Shown here piece after piece: positions 29,553 to 39,660 of a stretch of 64,000 bases of DNA. The stretch is from the NCBI GenBank assembly GCA_030263375.1, contig SZOV01000002.1:1-64000 (forward strand). The letters run 5' to 3'. This stretch comes from Deltaproteobacteria bacterium PRO3 (GTDB lineage Bacteria > UBA10199 > DSSB01). How positions within the stretch are numbered: position 1 is the stretch's first letter; each line of letters opens with the position of its first letter. Both the position numbers and the translations under genes were made by a program. Under the pieces are notes generated by a model that saw only the letters and a list, made by a program, of their open reading frames with translations, was not told where the DNA came from and made no database searches.

Positions 29553-29623
29553 TCGGGGATCGTCTAACGGTAGGACTACGGACTCTGACTCCGTCAATCT
29601 TGGTTCGAATCCAAGTCCCCGAG
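29553..29623 (+). tRNA. tRNA-Gln (anticodon CUG)
   Basis: Acceptor stem TCGGGGA pairs with TCCCCGA (29616-29622), discriminator G at 29623, CCA not encoded. Anticodon stem ACGGA/TCCGT encloses loop CTCTGAC with anticodon CTG at 29585-29587, reading CAG. T-arm CTTGG-TTCGAAT-CCAAG is perfect, and the D-loop contains AACGGTAGGAC. The 3' end is the left boundary of an AT-rich accessory region and overlaps the tail of a recombinase remnant on the other strand. Confidence 0.95.
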
Positions 29624-29925
29624 CATTGCTGGACGCGCGATCCACTGGGCCGTCCAGTTGAAGGGCTTTTTTAAGGAATATTCGAGGGTTCCGTTCTTGA
29701 GAAAGTAGTTCGATTTGATCGGATTGAGGAGTTCCCGTTTTCTTGGTCCGTTGTTCTTAAATACAGTTGATGTATGTGTTTGCCGAGTTCGAGTATCTTC
29801 TTCCCGCTCTCATAATATGGGATGTCCGCATAACCGTAGGCGTTGAGTTGGGCCTCAAGGATTAGCTTCTCTTCATGCCAGCGATTGGTATTGGATAACC
29901 AAAAACTCTTCCCGGATCCTTCCAT
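29594..29925 (-). pseudogene. Serine-recombinase C-terminal remnant, frameshifted
   Basis: From 29925 the frame reads a zinc-ribbon/coiled-coil tail typical of large serine recombinases (KLILEAQLNAYGYADIPYY, SGKKILELGKHIHQLYLRTTDQE). At about 29,735 one A is missing from an A-run. Shifting frame restores KRELLNPIKSNYFLKNGTL and EYSLKKPFNWTAQW, the usual 'LLnxxxSNxxxxxGxLxxxxrkPF' ending. The restored frame ends at a TGA at 29594-29596 inside the tRNA-Gln gene. The catalytic N-terminal domain is gone, so this is the dead integrase end of an island. Confidence 0.8.
29615..29661. other. Left attachment-site copy (att) at the tRNA-Gln 3' end
   Basis: The 13 bases GTCCCCGAGCATT (29615-29627) recur exactly at 38,514-38,526. 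Homology continues imperfectly to CCAGTTGA (29654-29661 and 38,552-38,559). Islands commonly integrate at tRNA 3' ends and leave such direct repeats. Confidence 0.75.
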
Positions 29926-30644
29926 CCAATTAATCGATATAGGACTGGTCGATGCGGGCCGGTAAGGTATCGACCTTTTTGCGAAAGCGTCATCAATTAA
30001 AATTCTTGTCTGGGTTGGGACAAGAAATGGGGAGTCTGTCTAACGGCCTTCATTTTTTCGGGTCGTTTTGTACTTATAGCTATCGATCGCAATCGAGGTA
30101 GTCTTAGCCCCTAGTTTCTCTAAAATCGTTCATTTTAGGGGCAATATTTTTTTTAGCCGGGACCTCAGCCCCCTTTTGAAGTTTTGCATTCGTGCTTGAA
30201 TAAAATCACGCGATTAGATTTTTTTACGAAAGGTCGATTCTAAGGGTTTTTAAAGCCCATCTCCATTTTGGGTGGGGACTAGAAAATATTCAGGTCGGCC
30301 CAACAATGCATCGTCCCACTAATTTCGCGAAGGACCAGGACTCGATTTGCTGGGCGGTTTTTCAGTCAGAAGTCTGAATTCGGCAGGTGAGGTCGTCGAT
30401 GAGCCAGGAGCTTGTTTGACAGTCGGGGTTATAAAAAGACTTCCCTCGTCCATAAGGTACCTCTCAAAGTTTTGAGAACAATGTCCTAAACGAGGTTTTC
30501 ATTCAACGGACATAAGCAGACACGTCAGGGACAAATGCGGACAAGTTCCCAATTCAGCCACCGGGATACACCCCGTTTTTAAAGGGTTTTTAGCATAAAT
30601 GTATTTATTTGCATGGCTTAGAGAAGAAGCCTAAAATTCATTAA
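29926..30644. other. AT-rich stretch without a gene
   Basis: 719 bases between the recombinase remnant and the methylase gene. No convincing reading frame, tRNA or terminator is seen. It contains GGACA-AATG-CGGACAA at 30529-30544, whose inverted counterpart TTGTCCG-ACAA-TGTCC is at 36,623-36,638. The promoter of the methylase gene should be near 30,580-30,630 (AT-rich) but is not assignable. Confidence 0.5.
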
Positions 30645-33600
30645 ATGAGCAGGAAGTTTCCCAGCCACATAGAAGGTCTGCTCAAATATGTTTCTCGTCC
30701 TGAAGAAAAAGCAAACGAGGATCTTGCCTTAGCTTATTTTAGGAAACTCTATCCCGATACATTTACTCGCCAATCCGAAGCCAAGAGATCTGATGGATAC
30801 GTCCCTAGTCATTTTGTCTTGGAGTTAAAAGGAAAAACTAATGATTGGTTATGTGGCCTTTTCCAAGGCCTCGCATATAAGCGTGAACTTGATTTCTCAT
30901 TGATCGTTGTAGCAGCGAAACAGTTTCTTGCAGTCTGGCAAGTTAATGATCTTCCAGAAGAAGCTATCCAGGAAGTCCTATCTAGCAAAAAGGCAGCCAG
31001 TACTCTCGGTAAAGATTTAGCGAGAAAATACTCTACTGAAAAAAAGAGTCTTTATAAAAAGGCCATTTGGACAGGGGGAGATGAACTTTTTGGAGATTTA
31101 TTTAGTTCACAATCCGATATTGTCTTCACGAAACTTAAATCATTTGAAGATACTCTCCGTAAAGCCAAGAAGGTTCGGCAGAAGATTACTCCAAGAAATT
31201 TCATTACCATTTTAAAACAGATGCCCCAGTTTTTTGACCCTGCCCAACCAATCAAAGCCGTGCGGGCTTTTTACAGTATGGTGTTCGGTTGGAATGAAAC
31301 GTCCGTATTACAGATAAGCCAACGTGTTGATGACCAAGCAACCCTCGGTGGTGAGAAAATAGAAAACCTCATTTCCAGCAAACGGCTTTTATTCAAAGAA
31401 TTTGTAGAAAATCATGCGGTGCAGTTGGGTGAGGGCGAAAATAATGACGATTTCTTTGCACATTATGACGAGGCTCTTGACGCCGTAGATAAAAACTTCC
31501 GAATCGGTCATGGAATTTTTTTTACAGATTTAGATTTATCAAAGTTTGTGATGTGGCTTGTGAAACAACACTTGCCGGATCTAGGGAAAAATTATCTGGT
31601 TATTGATCCGGCCTGTGGAAGCGGAAATCTTGTTACAAATTGGCGTTCCCCACTTGAACTAAGACACAAGGTAGTAAGTGAAATCGAGCCTGAATTACTT
31701 TTCTCCGTGGAACAGAGAATGAAAGGTGACGCATGGCACAACGGGAAATTCACAGTTGTTCCAAAGGTAAATGAAAATAAAGGGTTAAATTTTTTGGATA
31801 AAAGTGCAGATGATTATCTTGAGATTTTAAAAAGATATTTAATCGAAAAAGGACACAAGCCAAATAAGCCATTAGCCTTCTTATGCAACCCTCCATATAG
31901 AAGTGACGATGACCAGACAGCCGAAGCAATAAAATATAATATTCATCCTTCCATTGTAGAACTTACCGGTAACGACGCCAGTTCTGAACGCTATTGCTGT
32001 TTCTTGGCACAAATGAAGCAGATTTGTAAAATTGCAGAGGAAAGTGGGCTGCCCGGTGATTCACTTTTACTTGTATTTACTAAAGCCGCCTGGATGACCA
32101 AGCGGCCAATATTTCAAAAATTAAGAGGAGAAGTCCTCGCCAGTTTCAAAGACATTGATGGGATTTTGATTAATGGTAAGGAATTTTTTGATGTTAAGGG
32201 AAAATTCCCAGTGGCCTTTACGATTTGGGCATACAACACAAATAGAGAAATGCTCGATCCAGAAAGAAATATTTCTCTTATCGACCTTACTTGGGTAAAA
32301 AAAGATCAACTCGCCAATTTATCTTGGACTGATATTAAGGCCTTAGATGATCAATGCAAAACGATTCTCTCTAATCCAAGGTCCATTAGGGTTGGACTGG
32401 GCATAGAACGACAAACAATTAGGGAGTGGGTTGAACAAAAAATGACTGATTTTAAAAGAGATCGACGCCGAAACGAGGTTGGATTGACCATTGTGGGAGG
32501 TTTACCTTTAGGCGATCCTCGTATGGAAAATAAAAAAGCCTATGGCGATAGTCTGGGCGGAAAAATTGGTTTCATGGATGATTTAACTCCATGCCGAATC
32601 AATAAAGAATCTTTTAATGTGCCTCATTTTCATCTTGACGTTAGATTCATGCGAGTAAGGGCCTATCGTTGTTTTTCGGGACACGCTGATAATAGATCAT
32701 TTGCGGCTAATTCAATGGAAGAAGCGAAAAAGCTGTTTCTCTGGTTCTCGCTTGGGAAAACTTTCGCACATTGTTCATATCCACTGTGGGTGGATGCTCT
32801 TGAAATTTGGACTCCTATTATACCACAAAGATTTTCCAATGAAGTCTTAAAATATTCGTTTGCCATTGGGTTCTCAGAAAATGAATGTGTTGAAACAATA
32901 TTTCCTGCAAATAATCCCGTTAACGGAGCTCCAGAAATAATTGTGTCTAATCCAATGGCCCCAACAAGTCCTGAGTCATTTTGGTCAAAAAACATGGCTC
33001 AAGTATTTTCAGAATCGAAATCGACTCCAGATAAACTTGTTCAATCCGTCGAAAATCTTTATTCAGTTTGGAAAAATAATTTCCACGGCAGACCAGAAAT
33101 AATCGCTCCATTTAAAAGACCTTATTTTATTACTAAAGGGGCTCTTAGGGTAACGGCGGGCATTGTCCAAATTAAAGATTATGCGAACGAAACGGATGAT
33201 AAAGCTTTATTGGGGGTCTACGAGGACGTTCAAAAACTCCTAAAGCAAACAAAGGAAGAATTTTATAACCTTCTCCTCGATAAGAATGGATTGAATTATT
33301 TTGGAATGCAACAGCCCAAAAAAATTGTATCTCTTTTCACTCCTTCTACAAAATTTGAAAAAATCTTAGAAAAACGTTTAGTCGTTGCTGGATTGATAAT
33401 TAATTCTCTTTCAAATGATCCTAATTTTGGTCGAACTAAATTTGCAAAACTCTTTTATCTTGCGGATGCAACGCAAAATATAGATCTTCGAACAGATTAT
33501 TACCGGGAGGCCGCTGGTCCTCTTGATGCAAGAGCCCTTTATAATTCCAAAATGGGTATTGAAGCTTTAGGTATGAGTTATGATTATTTCCAGGTTAAAC

Positions 33601-33977
33601 AAACCTCTGGCCGGCGAGTAAAATATCTTCCGGGAGACCACCTTCCTGATTTGGTAGAAAGAGCCAAAAGCCTTCTAAATGAGAAGGTCCCAGAAATAAA
33701 CCGAATTACAGAGATATGTCGGAAACTCGATACTGATCAATGTGAAATTGTGGCCACTTTATATGCTTGCTGGAATGACCTCTTAATCGAAGAAAAAAGA
33801 GCGGAGGACCAAGATATTATTAGAGAGTTTCTTCAGAATTGGCACCACAAGAAACGTCGATTCCCCAAAGACAGGCTTCTGAAGGCCTTGGGCTGGATGA
33901 GAAGGCATAATCTAATTCCAAATGGCCGTGGCAAGCATACAACCGCTAAACAAGCCGTTGAAGACGATGCTTTTTAA
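30645..33977 (+). CDS. Large N6-adenine DNA methylase with nuclease-like N-terminus and winged-helix C-terminus, 1,110 aa
   Basis: N-terminus: D50, E60 and K62 in FVLELKGKTNDW resemble a PD-(D/E)XK nuclease core. Centre: FFTDLDLSKFVMWLV, then SAM-binding motif I DPACGSGNLV (about 320-329) and catalytic motif IV NPPY (about 415), typical of gamma-class N6-adenine methylases. C-terminal (about 915-1050) FGRTKFAKLFYLAD resembles a helix-turn-helix region seen at the end of some restriction proteins. One chain with cutting, modifying and recognition parts suggests a type IIG-like restriction-modification or phage-defence enzyme. AT-rich composition unlike the backbone indicates transfer. It converges on mrr with 17 bases between stops. 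Confidence 0.8.
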   Translation: MSRKFPSHIEGLLKYVSRPEEKANEDLALAYFRKLYPDTFTRQSEAKRSDGYVPSHFVLELKGKTNDWLCGLFQGLAYKRELDFSLIVVAAKQFLAVWQVNDLPEEAIQEVLSSKKAASTLGKDLARKYSTEKKSLYKKAIWTGGDELFGDLFSSQSDIVFTKLKSFEDTLRKAKKVRQKITPRNFITILKQMPQFFDPAQPIKAVRAFYSMVFGWNETSVLQISQRVDDQATLGGEKIENLISSKRLLFKEFVENHAVQLGEGENNDDFFAHYDEALDAVDKNFRIGHGIFFTDLDLSKFVMWLVKQHLPDLGKNYLVIDPACGSGNLVTNWRSPLELRHKVVSEIEPELLFSVEQRMKGDAWHNGKFTVVPKVNENKGLNFLDKSADDYLEILKRYLIEKGHKPNKPLAFLCNPPYRSDDDQTAEAIKYNIHPSIVELTGNDASSERYCCFLAQMKQICKIAEESGLPGDSLLLVFTKAAWMTKRPIFQKLRGEVLASFKDIDGILINGKEFFDVKGKFPVAFTIWAYNTNREMLDPERNISLIDLTWVKKDQLANLSWTDIKALDDQCKTILSNPRSIRVGLGIERQTIREWVEQKMTDFKRDRRRNEVGLTIVGGLPLGDPRMENKKAYGDSLGGKIGFMDDLTPCRINKESFNVPHFHLDVRFMRVRAYRCFSGHADNRSFAANSMEEAKKLFLWFSLGKTFAHCSYPLWVDALEIWTPIIPQRFSNEVLKYSFAIGFSENECVETIFPANNPVNGAPEIIVSNPMAPTSPESFWSKNMAQVFSESKSTPDKLVQSVENLYSVWKNNFHGRPEIIAPFKRPYFITKGALRVTAGIVQIKDYANETDDKALLGVYEDVQKLLKQTKEEFYNLLLDKNGLNYFGMQQPKKIVSLFTPSTKFEKILEKRLVVAGLIINSLSNDPNFGRTKFAKLFYLADATQNIDLRTDYYREAAGPLDARALYNSKMGIEALGMSYDYFQVKQTSGRRVKYLPGDHLPDLVERAKSLLNEKVPEINRITEICRKLDTDQCEIVATLYACWNDLLIEEKRAEDQDIIREFLQNWHHKKRRFPKDRLLKALGWMRRHNLIPNGRGKHTTAKQAVEDDAF

Positions 33978-33994
33978 TTGCTACCAACGCCCTT

Positions 33995-34903
33995 TTATTC
34001 TTCGTTAAAATAATCAGAATCGATCCTTTTGGTTTCATAAGTGGATATGGGCGTAAGCCCAATGTTGTGGTCGATCATGAAGTGAGCTAGTTGCTCTCCG
34101 TCGATTAGAATAATTTTAGAATCTATTTTGGATACGTAATCCTGAGCATCTTTCGTAAATGAAGAGGTTGTAATAAAAATTCCTTTTTTTGCTCGGTGGC
34201 CTTGAAGGGCCCCAGCAAATTTCTGAATTTCTGGCCTTCCAATCGTTGCCTGCCATCGTTTAGCTTGAATATAAATGACATCCAGACCCAACCGATCTTC
34301 ATTTATTATTCCATCGATTCCTTCGTCACCCATCCGACCAATAGCTTTTCCAGCTTCTTTTCGGGACCCTCCGTATCCCATTTTTACCAATAGATCTATA
34401 ACGAGTCGTTCAAAAAAGGCCGGGGAGCACTCGCTTACGATTTTAAGTAATTCCGAAGCAAGGTTTTCACGTAATTTCTGATAGGCGGTTTCCAAGAGCT
34501 CGGCTGGAGTTTTAAGATTTTCAGCTTCAAGTATATCAGTTGTTTCCTTTTGTTCTTGTTTTTTTGTTCGAAATTCTACGAATTCCGGAAATTGGTCTAA
34601 GAATTTCACATTGATTTTTGACGGATTCTTCGCCAAGGCTTCACGGCCCCGAGGGGTAATTTTAAAGAAGCCTCGCCTAGTGGAATCAAGCAATCCCGCT
34701 TTACTTAAATACGTTCGAGCCCATGCAACCCTATTATCAAAAACTGGCTGCTGACCACTCGGCAGCAAATCTTTTCTCTCCAATTCCGTAAGATTGAATT
34801 TGTCCGCCAAACCCTCAATCACTTCGCGCAAAGAGTGTTCTTGCCCGTCTGCAACGAACTGCAACAAGGGAAGCATAGTAGATTGATAATCTGGAATAGG
34901 CAT
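33995..34903 (-). CDS. mrr: Mrr-type restriction endonuclease
   Basis: 302 residues from the ATG at 34903 (MPIPDYQS aligns with the family start). The N-terminal Mrr_N winged helix (about 1-90) is followed by the Mrr catalytic domain: FFERLVIDLLVKMGYGG (about 163-179), GDEGIDGII with D197, and IQAKRW with Q213-x-K215, the PD-QxK core. Mrr cuts methylated DNA in E. coli. Here it sits tail-to-tail with a methylase and 18 bases downstream of the Shedu gene on the same strand. No clear ribosome-binding site precedes it, consistent with coupling to the upstream gene. Confidence 0.92.
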   Translation of the reverse strand: MPIPDYQSTMLPLLQFVADGQEHSLREVIEGLADKFNLTELERKDLLPSGQQPVFDNRVAWARTYLSKAGLLDSTRRGFFKITPRGREALAKNPSKINVKFLDQFPEFVEFRTKKQEQKETTDILEAENLKTPAELLETAYQKLRENLASELLKIVSECSPAFFERLVIDLLVKMGYGGSRKEAGKAIGRMGDEGIDGIINEDRLGLDVIYIQAKRWQATIGRPEIQKFAGALQGHRAKKGIFITTSSFTKDAQDYVSKIDSKIILIDGEQLAHFMIDHNIGLTPISTYETKRIDSDYFNEE

Positions 34904-34921
34904 AAGAAATATCAATATGGA

Positions 34922-36094
34922 TTACTTGCCGGGTTTTTTCTTTTTGGTGGCCTTTAGTGGGAGCCTAGGTCTCGATAATTTTTTACTAAATTGCTCAAGC
35001 ACTACTATATAATTTTTAAGTCGGGTTAGTAATTCATCATAGGTTAGAATAGTTATATTCTTAATTCCCTGAGAGAGAAGTCGCAAGTCGTCGCGTTGTT
35101 TCTGCGAGGCAAAGCGTCGTGTGTCACCAACTAGGATTATTCCCCGTGGCCGTAAAGCCTTGGTCTCTAAATTAAACTTATCCTTGAGATGCGAGCGTAA
35201 AGCATCACCGTGACGACTAACATTATCAATATAATTCTCAGTCTGGATTATGGCTTTCGATACCTCAGTAGTCCAAAAAAAATTACCCCGCCCGGTATCT
35301 TCCTTTAAAATCTGCGTATCGGGTTTCTTTATTTCAAGTATATCCAAATAATTGTCGTGAGTTATTAAGGAAAAATCTGGAAATTTCGTCTCACCTATCG
35401 CCAAATTCAATTTGTCCAGAGCTTTGATATAGCCCTGTTGCATTAAGAGGATGTTTGCTTTTATATAGTCTTGCCACCAAGATTCTCCATGGTCCTTATC
35501 AATTTCCTTTTCGAAATCTGTTGCTAATTCTTTCAAGGTCTTTATTTCAGCAGAAGCCTTAAGAAGCGTAACGGTTCCAACAGCTTCTGTTGCTACAAAT
35601 TCGGGAATGAACTTTCTGATTACATCCCGGTCCTCAGTGGATAGCCTCGAAACAATTTTCTTATCTAACATCCCGGCAAGTGTCCCTGGGACATAGGTTT
35701 GGGTTATGCCATCACTAAAATATGAGGGAAAAGTTATGGAGAAAAAACGGCGAACAATGTCATTTTTGATATCCCTGCTGCGCGACCATTCCTCCTGATA
35801 CATTTTGCTGAGGAGCTTTTCCGATATTCTTATGCGGGTAACCCCCCATTTAGTTTCAATCGAATTGGTTGCAGGCGTGATGATCCATTTGAAATTTTGG
35901 AATTTGGCACTTAAAGTTTCTAGAATATGTTTTCCAAACTTTATACTGCCATCTGGATTCAACTTCTGTGGTTTCCGCCCCTCGAAATAAATCCTCGTGC
36001 CTTTTAGCTTGTTTCCATAGCTCTTGGTAGAGACGACGACGTAGTTTTTTTTTGAGGATTTCCTCTTTTTTCTTTTGCGTGGCGTTCGAGACAT
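34922..36094 (-). CDS. sduA: Shedu-type immune nuclease (DUF4263), 390 aa
   Basis: A very basic N-terminus (MSRTPRKRKKRKSSKK) is followed by an N-terminal domain (about 17-200). The C-terminal DUF4263/Shedu nuclease covers about 205-345: FPDFSLITHDNYLDILEIKKPD with D240 and E254-x-K256, then WTTEVSKAIIQTENYID and RPRGIILVGDTRR. Shedu proteins are single-gene anti-phage nucleases whose N-terminal domains vary. The gene also ends in a basic tail (KATKKKKPGK). It is AT-rich and probably co-transcribed with mrr. Confidence 0.85.
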   Translation of the reverse strand: MSRTPRKRKKRKSSKKNYVVVSTKSYGNKLKGTRIYFEGRKPQKLNPDGSIKFGKHILETLSAKFQNFKWIITPATNSIETKWGVTRIRISEKLLSKMYQEEWSRSRDIKNDIVRRFFSITFPSYFSDGITQTYVPGTLAGMLDKKIVSRLSTEDRDVIRKFIPEFVATEAVGTVTLLKASAEIKTLKELATDFEKEIDKDHGESWWQDYIKANILLMQQGYIKALDKLNLAIGETKFPDFSLITHDNYLDILEIKKPDTQILKEDTGRGNFFWTTEVSKAIIQTENYIDNVSRHGDALRSHLKDKFNLETKALRPRGIILVGDTRRFASQKQRDDLRLLSQGIKNITILTYDELLTRLKNYIVVLEQFSKKLSRPRLPLKATKKKKPGK

Positions 36095-36517
36095 AATAGC
36101 AACGTTCTATCTATTGGAAATATCAATATTGAGAAAGTTGAGATTTTTAAATCCGTTGAGCGTCCCATGCCGCTTTCTTGAAAGCTCTTACCTCAAAGTG
36201 GTCCGCCTTACCTGTGTTGATTAGGCTTTTTATTTCCGAGTCGATCAAAACCTTTCCCAGATTTTTCCATGACCCAGTGGACTGTGGAACAGATCCCATC
36301 GAATTTTATATCCCACCCGCCTGACACAGTAAGGTGACTCCCTCAAGTCAGGTAACTGACCAACTGTCACCCATATTTTCTATCCTGCACTTTCGTTTTA
36401 GACCGTTCATCTTTCTCAAGGGTGTTTTTTCTAAATGCGCTCGTTTCCTGTCTTTCCTTTTTTCGACAGATTGTTGCGATTTCGAAAATCCTCGCTCCTC
36501 TCGGCGATGGGCTACGC

Positions 36518-36708: not shown

Positions 36709-37725
36709 TTAAGAGTTAAATTCCGTTTCAAACAATTTAATCCCTTCCATCACCTCATCCCACGAGGCCGGACCTTCAAAAAACATTTCCCGCATGGCTT
36801 GGTAGTCCCTTCCCAATTCATAAGAAATGCGATCGGGAGGGGCGAGCTTCAAGGTGCCCTTTTTTGCAAATTGGTATTTGGCCCATGTCGATGGAAAATA
36901 CACTTCTTTATGTTTTGCGACTTTTTCTAAAAGGGCCTGGTTGGCCAAAGCTTCAGATTTGGCCGAAGAGTTGAGGAGGCAGGAAAAGTCATAATAGTGC
37001 CGGGACAAACGCGGAGGAACCTTCTTGTCGGAAGGAATATTTGCATATTGGTGCAAGATGGTCGCCTTCTCCCAGAAGGTTCTTTCAACATTCAAAACTT
37101 TCACGGTGACAGCGGGTTCTTCAACTTGATCATTTACCAGTTCCTTCACGTAACTTCGAATGGTCTTTTGACTCACAGGCCAATGCTCGGCCCGGGCACC
37201 CAGTTCGATCTTAACTGATGGTTGGATATAACCGGTTTGGGCAGTCGTAATGGCTGGATAATCAAAAAGCAGGGTTTGGTTTGTATCGTCGGCTTTGTCA
37301 ATTCTAAGATTCCACCCATCGGTCGAGTTGAGCTCATTGGAAAAATCTTCAGAAAGGGATTTCAAAAGTTTGTTTTGAACGTACTGCCCACATTCTTGGG
37401 AAAGCTGTTCCAAGGAAATACTTCTTTGCTTGCGGCTCGAGAAATGCTCAGGAGAATTATCCTCAGAAAAACCAAAAAATGATTTCTCGATGGACAGGTC
37501 AACATCCTCTGAAAACCTCCTGATGAGATTATAAACTTTAGAAAGGGAGGTGCCTCCTTTGAAAGTGAGATGATCTTTGATTTCAGTGATATTAAAAAGC
37601 CTCCCCAAAACCCAGACCACCCAATAATCCTTCTCGATCAGAGGGCTGGTGACGCCCATTTGTTCCGCGGCCTTTTCAAAATAAGGGAATCTTTCTTTTG
37701 GAGTGAGGAGGTGAATTTTATCCAT
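36709..37725 (-). CDS. abiEii: AbiEii-type nucleotidyltransferase toxin
   Basis: 338 residues. The nucleotidyltransferase core is visible as FKGGTSLSKVYNLI (GG-T-S, about 56-69) and FSEDVDLSIEK with D74 and D76, the metal-binding pair, followed by VKIELGARAEHWPV. AbiEii toxins are reversible growth-stopping enzymes in type IV toxin-antitoxin pairs that abort phage infection. It overlaps the upstream antitoxin stop by eight bases, so the pair is an operon. It lies inside the AT-rich accessory region. Confidence 0.88.
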   Translation of the reverse strand: MDKIHLLTPKERFPYFEKAAEQMGVTSPLIEKDYWVVWVLGRLFNITEIKDHLTFKGGTSLSKVYNLIRRFSEDVDLSIEKSFFGFSEDNSPEHFSSRKQRSISLEQLSQECGQYVQNKLLKSLSEDFSNELNSTDGWNLRIDKADDTNQTLLFDYPAITTAQTGYIQPSVKIELGARAEHWPVSQKTIRSYVKELVNDQVEEPAVTVKVLNVERTFWEKATILHQYANIPSDKKVPPRLSRHYYDFSCLLNSSAKSEALANQALLEKVAKHKEVYFPSTWAKYQFAKKGTLKLAPPDRISYELGRDYQAMREMFFEGPASWDEVMEGIKLFETEFNS

Positions 37726-38341
37726 TCATGTTTCCACGTAATTCGATAGTGACCTTGCGGATCCAAGCCGGGGCATGTCGGATACCGCGGTTAAGACTTT
37801 TCTCATCAATGGCAAGGAGATGCTTTTTCAATTTCTGGGTTTCGGATTTTGTTAAATGATCTTTGCCCATGTATTTCAGCGCTTGAAGGATCAAACCCAA
37901 CAGAGTTCCGGCATTGGCCATATTTTTGGCTGTGGTTTTTTTGAAGACTATCTCAGTCTTGCCGATCTTGATCTTTTTGGAAGGCCCATCCGTGATAAAA
38001 ACAACCCGAGAAGGAACTTGGTCAGAGAGACCTAAGAGGTTAGCGGCATATGCACCGGAGGGTTGAATCTTGATGTTATCCCTCTCGGAAATGGCTTGAG
38101 CAACCTTATCAACCGAGGGTGGAAGAAAACCCAATTTTTCATGGGTTCGAGGGTATTCATAAAGGCCTTGGGCAAGGCGGCGGATCATGCCGGCTTTGGT
38201 TAAGCGGTATAACGCGAGCCTAACTGATCCTTCCGTACCAAGCCCTCTAAAATTCTTTGGGGTCATGCACCAACCCCTAGTATGGCCATAAATTCTATTT
38301 TTTATAATAGTTTCAATAGCTTTTGAGTTATTTTTAGGCAT
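37718..38341 (-). CDS. abiEi: AbiEi-type antitoxin/regulator (DUF6088-like)
   Basis: 207 residues from the ATG at 38341; an in-frame TTG four codons upstream is inside the operator and less likely. The N-terminal winged helix (about 10-70: RGWCMTPKNFRGLGTEGSVRLALYRLTKAGMIRRL, GLYEYPRTH) is the DNA-binding part of AbiEi-like antitoxins, and the C-terminal half (SGAYAANLLGLSDQVPSRVVFITDGPSKKIKIG) is the typical antitoxin domain. AbiEi proteins neutralise AbiEii indirectly and repress their own promoter. Two matching palindromes lie immediately upstream. Confidence 0.87.
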   Translation of the reverse strand: MPKNNSKAIETIIKNRIYGHTRGWCMTPKNFRGLGTEGSVRLALYRLTKAGMIRRLAQGLYEYPRTHEKLGFLPPSVDKVAQAISERDNIKIQPSGAYAANLLGLSDQVPSRVVFITDGPSKKIKIGKTEIVFKKTTAKNMANAGTLLGLILQALKYMGKDHLTKSETQKLKKHLLAIDEKSLNRGIRHAPAWIRKVTIELRGNMNG

Positions 38342-38379
38342 TTTTTGTAACAAAAAGTAGTATGTTTTTGTTACAAAAA
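38342..38379 (-). promoter_or_regulatory. Paired palindromic operator at the AbiE start
   Basis: TTTTTGTAACAAAAA (38342-38356) and TTTTTGTTACAAAAA (38365-38379) are two copies of the palindrome TTTTTGTnACAAAAA, centre-to-centre 23 bases, about two helical turns. The first begins one base from the start codon, replacing any ribosome-binding site, so the mRNA may be nearly leaderless. Autoregulation by AbiEi is inferred. Confidence 0.75.
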
Positions 38380-38513
38380 CAAGGGGGATTTTTTTGAGGG
38401 TTTTATGCAGGTGAGAAGAGAGGTCGAAAACCTTAAGCCACTCGGCTATTCATCGCAAATTCGAAAAGTTCTTTCCCTTGCGGGCTCATCAAAAAAGTTC
38501 GATAACCATCGAC

Positions 38514-38559
38514 GTCCCCGAGCATTATTGAACGCGCGGCTAATATGCCATCCAGTTGA
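38514..38559. other. Second attachment-site copy (internal or right att)
   Basis: GTCCCCGAGCATT at 38514-38526 is an exact copy of 29,615-29,627, followed by imperfect homology through ACGCGCG and CCAGTTGA (38552-38559). Because the homologous flank lies on the same (right) side in both copies, a second element probably begins here rather than the first simply ending. It is 14 bases from the stop of the RES gene. Confidence 0.7.
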
Positions 38560-38573
38560 TATTCCAAGCCCGT

Positions 38574-39260
38574 CTATTGTTTTTCATAAACTGAAACGAT
38601 TTTGTTTCCGTCCCAGACATAAATGAAATGCCCGCCTACCTGCGGGTTGGATAAGGTTTTAGGTCTAAAAACCGCGGCGCAGTCATTTCGTTTCGGAAAT
38701 GGATCCCGAACGCTTTTAAATAGTAAGCCGTTGCCTCCTTGGGCCCGGAGACTCCCGCCGAGTTTTTGCCCGGCACCATAAGACATCGGATCGTAAATGC
38801 CGGAAGGAGTCCCGGATACGCCCCGAACATCGTAAAACATCCCCTTCAATCGCGCCTGTATAAGCCTCATCTCGAGATGCATGGCCTTCTCCCGAGTGCG
38901 TTTCATGAAAACTTCCCGATGGTATTTGGTTTCCTCAAGGGCGGTTTGGAGGTTTTTCGCGCAATAATAGACTCCGAAGGAACCGTCGCTAAATCGGCTT
39001 CCCTCCGGATTAAGATGCAGGAAAGGAGCCATGAGATAACTCGCGTTGTTGCCAAAAACCCATTCTTCCTTGGGCACCAAGCGAAGCAAATTCTGTTCCG
39101 CTCGCAGCCGATCGTTGGTCATCGCCTCAATTTCATAGAGGACTTCGAATTCATCGGGATCGGAGACCCGATCAAAAACATCGATGGGGGGATCGCGGGA
39201 AGGAATTAGGCGGAAGGTCGCCCAATCGACCTTCCTTATAGGAGGGACTCTTACGACCAT
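38574..39260 (-). CDS. RES-domain toxin
   Basis: 228 residues. RES toxins degrade NAD+ or ADP-ribosylate targets. Seen: an early Arg in TFRLIPSRDPPIDVFD, then GSRFSDGSFGVYYCAKNLQTALEETKYH with the conserved Tyr and Glu, and YGAGQKLGGSLRAQGGNGLLFKSVRDP with the closing Ser. These are the conserved Arg, Tyr/Glu and Ser positions of the fold. It overlaps the upstream antitoxin stop by ten bases. The gene belongs to the accessory region but is GC-richer than the methylase block. Confidence 0.87.
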   Translation of the reverse strand: MVVRVPPIRKVDWATFRLIPSRDPPIDVFDRVSDPDEFEVLYEIEAMTNDRLRAEQNLLRLVPKEEWVFGNNASYLMAPFLHLNPEGSRFSDGSFGVYYCAKNLQTALEETKYHREVFMKRTREKAMHLEMRLIQARLKGMFYDVRGVSGTPSGIYDPMSYGAGQKLGGSLRAQGGNGLLFKSVRDPFPKRNDCAAVFRPKTLSNPQVGGHFIYVWDGNKIVSVYEKQ

Positions 39261-39655
39261 CCGCCCCTCTGTGCGTCGAGGTATTTTCGAACCTCGTAGA
39301 GGTCTCCCACGTTTCCCGACAACATTCGGTCCAAGGCCGAGCCTCCTCCAAATATCGGCGCGGAGTTAGGCTTTTTCACCCATTCGTCGGAGGATTTTTC
39401 GTTCGGCAATAAAATCTGCAAGGCTTTAAAAATGCCGAGAACATAAGAAATTCTCTCGAGGGTGTCCTTCGGCAATTTTTTAACATCGAGATTTTTATAT
39501 TTATAGAAAGTCGACTGGGGCTGGACCCCCAGAAGGGTCTTCTGCTGTTGCGGATTTAAGCCCCATAACTCCGCAACCTTAAAAAAGGCCTTGAGACCGG
39601 AGCGAGCCATCTTCTCATCCGTTAGGGTCGGTTTTTCGACGGGAAAGGCATTCAT
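39251..39655 (-). CDS. Xre/MbcA/ParS-type antitoxin (DUF2384)
   Basis: 134 residues from the ATG at 39655. The N-terminal helical DNA-binding region (GLKAFFKVAELWGLNPQQQKTLLGVQPQSTFYKYK, about 20-55) is followed by the DUF2384 toxin-binding domain (VLGIFKALQILLPNEKSSDEWVKKPNSAPIFGGGSALDRMLSG), ending VGDLYEVRKYLDAQRGG. This is the standard partner of RES toxins. Antitoxin-first order and overlap with the toxin gene support coupled expression. The pair is likely self-repressed through AT-rich palindromes upstream. Confidence 0.9.
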   Translation of the reverse strand: MNAFPVEKPTLTDEKMARSGLKAFFKVAELWGLNPQQQKTLLGVQPQSTFYKYKNLDVKKLPKDTLERISYVLGIFKALQILLPNEKSSDEWVKKPNSAPIFGGGSALDRMLSGNVGDLYEVRKYLDAQRGGWS

Positions 39656-39660
39656 CAATT

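Follow-up and report, generated by a model that had tools for sequence, protein, structure and literature searches.

A probable tRNA-Gln defence island carrying a Type IIG-like restriction-modification enzyme beside Mrr, Shedu and AbiE

A 64,000-nucleotide stretch of DNA (the window) was analysed in this study, and the best explanation of its nuclease-rich segment, to which we give a probability of about 0.82, is an 8.9-kb mobile defence island at a tRNA-Gln gene that contains independent systems: a Type IIG-like restriction-modification (RM) enzyme, Mrr, Shedu and AbiE. Computation supplied the domain and motif assignments, the evidence of their conservation, the boundaries of the island and the finding that the sampled relatives lack the trio of long protein, Mrr and Shedu. 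The features are as follows.

29553-29624, + strand: tRNA-Gln with CTG anticodon (ARAGORN)
29609-29639: attL-like left insertion boundary at the tRNA-Gln 3' end, direct repeat with 38508-38538
30645-33977, + strand: ORF of the long predicted nuclease-methylase protein (1,110 aa)
33995-34903, - strand: mrr, Type IV modification-dependent nuclease (Pfam Mrr_cat 1.1e-37 and Mrr_N 4.1e-35; PADLOC mREase_IV 5.4e-96)
34922-36094, - strand: sduA (Shedu, DUF4263) nuclease (Pfam SduA_C 7.2e-27; PADLOC SduA 2.7e-28; motif intact)
36709-37725, - strand: AbiEii toxin (Pfam AbiEii 9.1e-41; PADLOC AbiEii 7.3e-102)
37718-38353, - strand: AbiEi antitoxin (DUF6088 5.1e-48; PADLOC AbiEi 2.2e-65)
38508-38538, + strand: attR-like right insertion boundary, copy of the tRNA-Gln 3' end (repeat match)

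An insertion at tRNA-Gln

From tRNA-Gln on, GC content drops from about 0.63 to 0.39-0.45 over roughly 29.6-39 kb. The left and right boundary repeats share 84% identity over 31 nt. A 25-nt degenerate pattern, written from both copies, occurs at these two places only with 0 expected; a fair chance estimate for the repeat is 0.32 expected (17 nt with 3 mismatches). In a genome of the same family (G004), a RES/Xre pair comes immediately after tRNA-Gln and the 8.9-kb insert is absent, and in a genome of the same genus (G002) the entire 29.63-39.9 kb stretch is missing. Together with the repeated tRNA 3' end, these absences make an 8.9-kb insertion into the tRNA gene most likely. A far-end tRNA repeat, an empty site in relatives and a deviant GC content, all hallmarks of an island, are found at this locus.

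The window also encodes a RES/Xre toxin-antitoxin pair (38574-39658, - strand), located just beyond the second repeat and outside the insert, which is 77% and 83% identical to the pair at the same tRNA-Gln site of G004. This pair seems to be an older resident of the hotspot, next to which the tRNA gene most likely received the insert with the long protein, Mrr, Shedu and AbiE. No integrase was recognised by Pfam among the insert ORFs scanned. The left end of the insert holds a 122-aa open stretch (29640-30006, - strand), perhaps a decayed gene; an integrase remnant suspected there by eye found no match with Pfam or tblastn.

Within the insert, the long gene is separated from the mrr end by 17 nt (33978-33994), and mrr from Shedu by 18 nt (34904-34921). 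These positions, the tail-to-tail order and both gaps agree with the preliminary description of this DNA. The long gene is convergent to mrr and Shedu and does not belong to the same operon. Although the program-made mrr ORF opens at TTG (34915), the true start is likely the ATG at 34903.

The long protein and its family

Four regions can be distinguished in the 1,110-aa protein.

residues ~1-140: PD-(D/E)XK nuclease domain (alignment, model and fold search)
residues ~290-545: gamma-type N6-adenine methylase (alignment, models and fold searches)
residues ~546-890: putative specificity region (regional divergence)
residues ~900-1100 (window 33345-33974, + strand): HsdS/DarG-like tail (PADLOC)

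D50, E60, K62, Q74 and Y78 are invariant in an alignment of 13 family members including the window protein, and together they make up a PD-(D/E)XK site followed by a QxxxY motif. Residues 1-180 were modelled with a pLDDT of 87.8 and a pTM of 0.87, and their order of helices and strands is PD-(D/E)XK-like. The top Foldseek matches of this model are PD-(D/E)XK nucleases, none with E<0.001; Holliday junction resolvase, BpuSI, NucC, LHK-Exo and DrdV are among the matches and individually not significant. The possible PD-(D/E)XK N-terminus (D50, E60, K62) proposed earlier thus gains from both conservation and predicted fold, even if the fold matches are weak one by one. NPPY is likewise invariant in the 13 members, and DPAxGSGNL is so at all but one position; the two motifs are the signature of gamma-class adenine methylases, and the preliminary description had likewise read a methylase core from DPACGSGNL and NPPY. 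Very probably, the long protein is a predicted PD-(D/E)XK nuclease fused to an N6-adenine methylase.

The model of the whole protein (mean pLDDT 77.5) resembles Type I M subunits, MmeI and BsaXI, and a fold search with it matched the methylase to M subunits, MmeI and M.BseCI. BpuSI, a Type IIG enzyme, is the best PDB sequence match to the family profile, albeit a weak one (E=0.0044). The structural search with the whole model also returned BREX PglX (8c45, E=0.011); this match, along with the individually weak N-terminal fold matches, could speak for a protein that only methylates, either an orphan or a PglX-like enzyme whose N-terminal domain is inactive as a nuclease. We consider this improbable, because an inactive domain needs none of the five residues that are invariant in 13 diverse members, and because a scan of seven island ORFs gave no match to a BREX model; PglZ or BrxC partners near the methylase were not found among these ORFs either.

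Within the group of the five closest members, identity reaches 77% in the methylase core but only 34% in residues 546-620 and 32% in residues 781-890. Such fast divergence relative to the core fits a specificity module, and no recognised specificity-domain match to the long protein was found in this fast-varying region (546-890). In two Cytophagales genomes (L019, 9992-14133; L020, 1348-5522), a second frame directly 3' of the RM gene repeats the specificity region only, with 83-86% DNA identity to the first gene over the 3' ~890 bases and with its first ~250 bases mostly unlike that gene. Judged from sequence, the second frame is likely a spare specificity cassette that would serve as a specificity switch.

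The strong PADLOC matches of the long protein lie in the tail only: residues ~917-1103 match the ends of the HsdS (6e-31) and HsdM (8e-25) models and, more weakly, the DarG model (4e-6), and the last ~200 residues form a mostly helical module common to the HsdS and DarG models. The tail is confined to a close subgroup (the window protein, L009, L010 and L012) and absent in nine of the 13 aligned members. HsdS-like ORFs ending in the same tail occur in L002 (1609-2322, - strand) and L003 (1495-3447, - strand), and tblastn gave a tail-only match on one plasmid. When the whole model was compared with known structures, the match to DarG itself was not significant (7yk3_B, E=1.1). The extreme end was modelled as two helices and two strands and could be winged-helix-like; the winged-helix C-terminus put forward previously is compatible with these elements, short of specific confirmation. 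A regulatory or protein-binding role of the tail is our guess. Its sharing by Type I specificity subunits and DarG, and its position on a Type IIG-like enzyme in the window, pose a small, testable puzzle about restriction-enzyme control.

Two full-length relatives were found in a search of 388 genomes, and an alignment of them with the window protein recovered 12 loci from GTDB genomes plus one on a viral contig. The hosts include Bdellovibrionales, an Acidobacterium, Coatesbacteria, Zixiibacteriota, Bacteroidota and one unclassified bacterium, and the 12 aligned relatives are 32-56% identical to the window protein. A scan of viral contigs with the single protein returned nothing, and the alignment-based scan returned one relative (L021), whose contig IMG/VR classes as viral, suggesting that phages or prophages can carry the family. 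When phages and plasmids were searched with the core by tblastn, the matches were all weak and fell on portal proteins or on the methylase core. Neither Pfam nor NCBIfam recognises the long protein above a curated cut-off, and its matches to Pfam MmeI_Mtase and PADLOC IIG fall below useful cut-offs; membership in the MmeI family (Type IIL) was rejected, with 13.4 bits to PF20473 against a cut-off of 27.

In Type IIG enzymes, a single polypeptide combines the cleavage domain with a gamma-class methylation domain and is linked to one specificity module (PMC4081073). RM.BpuSI, the Type IIL enzymes MmeI and DrdV, and the Type IIB enzyme BsaXI share with the long protein a single polypeptide that runs from nuclease through gamma-class methylase to specificity region, the last being putative in the long protein (PMC4081073). 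The long protein differs from Type IIG enzymes in that its sequence resembles theirs only weakly beyond the methylase motifs, and in the C-terminal tail added in its subgroup. The best reading of sequence and models is that it represents a divergent Type IIG RM enzyme, predicted to be self-sufficient in modifying and cutting. Its family appears sparse and modestly new, and adds to the known single-protein RM systems one that curated models miss at their cut-offs; the other systems of the island are of known kinds. We regard as speculative, and on balance doubtful, the wider proposal that the family is a rare and deeply diverged branch of Type IIG, changes specificity by exchange with spare cassettes and, in the subgroup, uses the tail to restrain or tune the nuclease.

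Mrr, Shedu and the recurrence of the trio

Mrr is matched over its full length in both domains with the motif GDEGIDG...IQAKR intact, and appears to be an ordinary Type IV member with no difference noted. Shedu has the catalytic C-terminal SduA_C domain with an intact FPDF...LEIKK motif, and its N-terminal ~185 residues fall outside the Pfam model, as is typical of the diverse Shedu N-termini (PMC12904381). Each protein thus has its own intact nuclease motif in a defence setting, consistent with the preliminary description.

That description had further suggested that the long protein, Mrr and Shedu form a fixed trio, perhaps a composite phage-defence unit. Neither Mrr nor Shedu adjoins a relative of the long protein in any of 14 other genomes or records, and Shedu is absent altogether from 13 of these, the exception (G410) having it on a different contig; the nearest same-contig Mrr known for a family member lies ~44 kb off (G155). 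From the other side, none of 12 other Shedu loci (11 genome loci, read with about 1.5 kb per side where the contig allowed, and one plasmid locus) has an adjacent Mrr. These counts refer to sampled public genomes, and distant neighbours could be missed at four relatives with short flanks (L011, L013, L017 and L021). Neighbours of the relatives vary, with a Fic protein in L009, PLD-like and DUF2779 proteins in L010 and an integrase in L012. Given this lack of recurrence and the varying neighbours, we interpret the trio, from the gene neighbourhoods compared, as a local association; the fixed unit finds no second instance, which keeps a neighbourhood effect from passing as a new system. This is largely the outcome that the preliminary description itself had named as speaking against its proposal.

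Shedu and Mrr may nevertheless share an operon. A 16-nt element, TC(A/C)ATATTGATATTTC, is present just upstream of both the mrr and Shedu starts (34906-34921 and 36117-36132, - strand), with no other copy in the window even when 3 mismatches are allowed; it is possibly a shared operator, and its chance expectation of 0.34 is optimistic because the match was spotted by inspection. The same strand, the 18-nt gap and this element are what would be expected if Shedu and Mrr were a cooperating two-gene operon independent of the long protein. Such cooperation is nonetheless unlikely, as adjacent Mrr is lacking at the 12 other Shedu loci, so that no second case of the pair as a conserved unit was found, and as the closest Mrr seen (L046, 54% identity) has no Shedu alongside.

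Least probable of all, and very much so, is a composite unit whose other nucleases, Mrr and/or Shedu, are controlled through methylation by the long protein: the tight packing (17 and 18 nt), the position of a methylase next to a methylation-dependent nuclease and the precedent of Pectobacterium, in which a conflict between such enzymes is settled by promoter methylation that silences the nuclease (PMC8989522), would favour it, but the combination recurs at no other sampled locus from either the long-protein or the Shedu side, and the long gene is convergent to mrr and Shedu and has a predicted nuclease domain of its own, hence no need of these neighbours. The adjacency of a methylase and a methylation-dependent nuclease does raise the question of self-cutting, and no sign of such a conflict at the window locus appeared in this analysis.

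Predicted action of the island

For the island of independent systems, we infer enzymatic activities, a target motif and separate action as follows. Target choice would fall to the specificity region (about residues 546-890), which would recognise a DNA motif; in host DNA the gamma-type methylase would modify an adenine of that motif, and incoming DNA would be cleaved near unmodified sites by the N-terminal PD-(D/E)XK domain. Mrr would attack foreign DNA that bears unfamiliar methylation, cleavage of foreign methylated DNA being established for the Mrr family. Shedu would cleave invading linear DNA close to its ends; end cutting has been shown for Escherichia coli SduA (reviewed in PMC12904381). 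AbiE is expected to work as a toxin-antitoxin pair, and each of these systems would most likely act alone.
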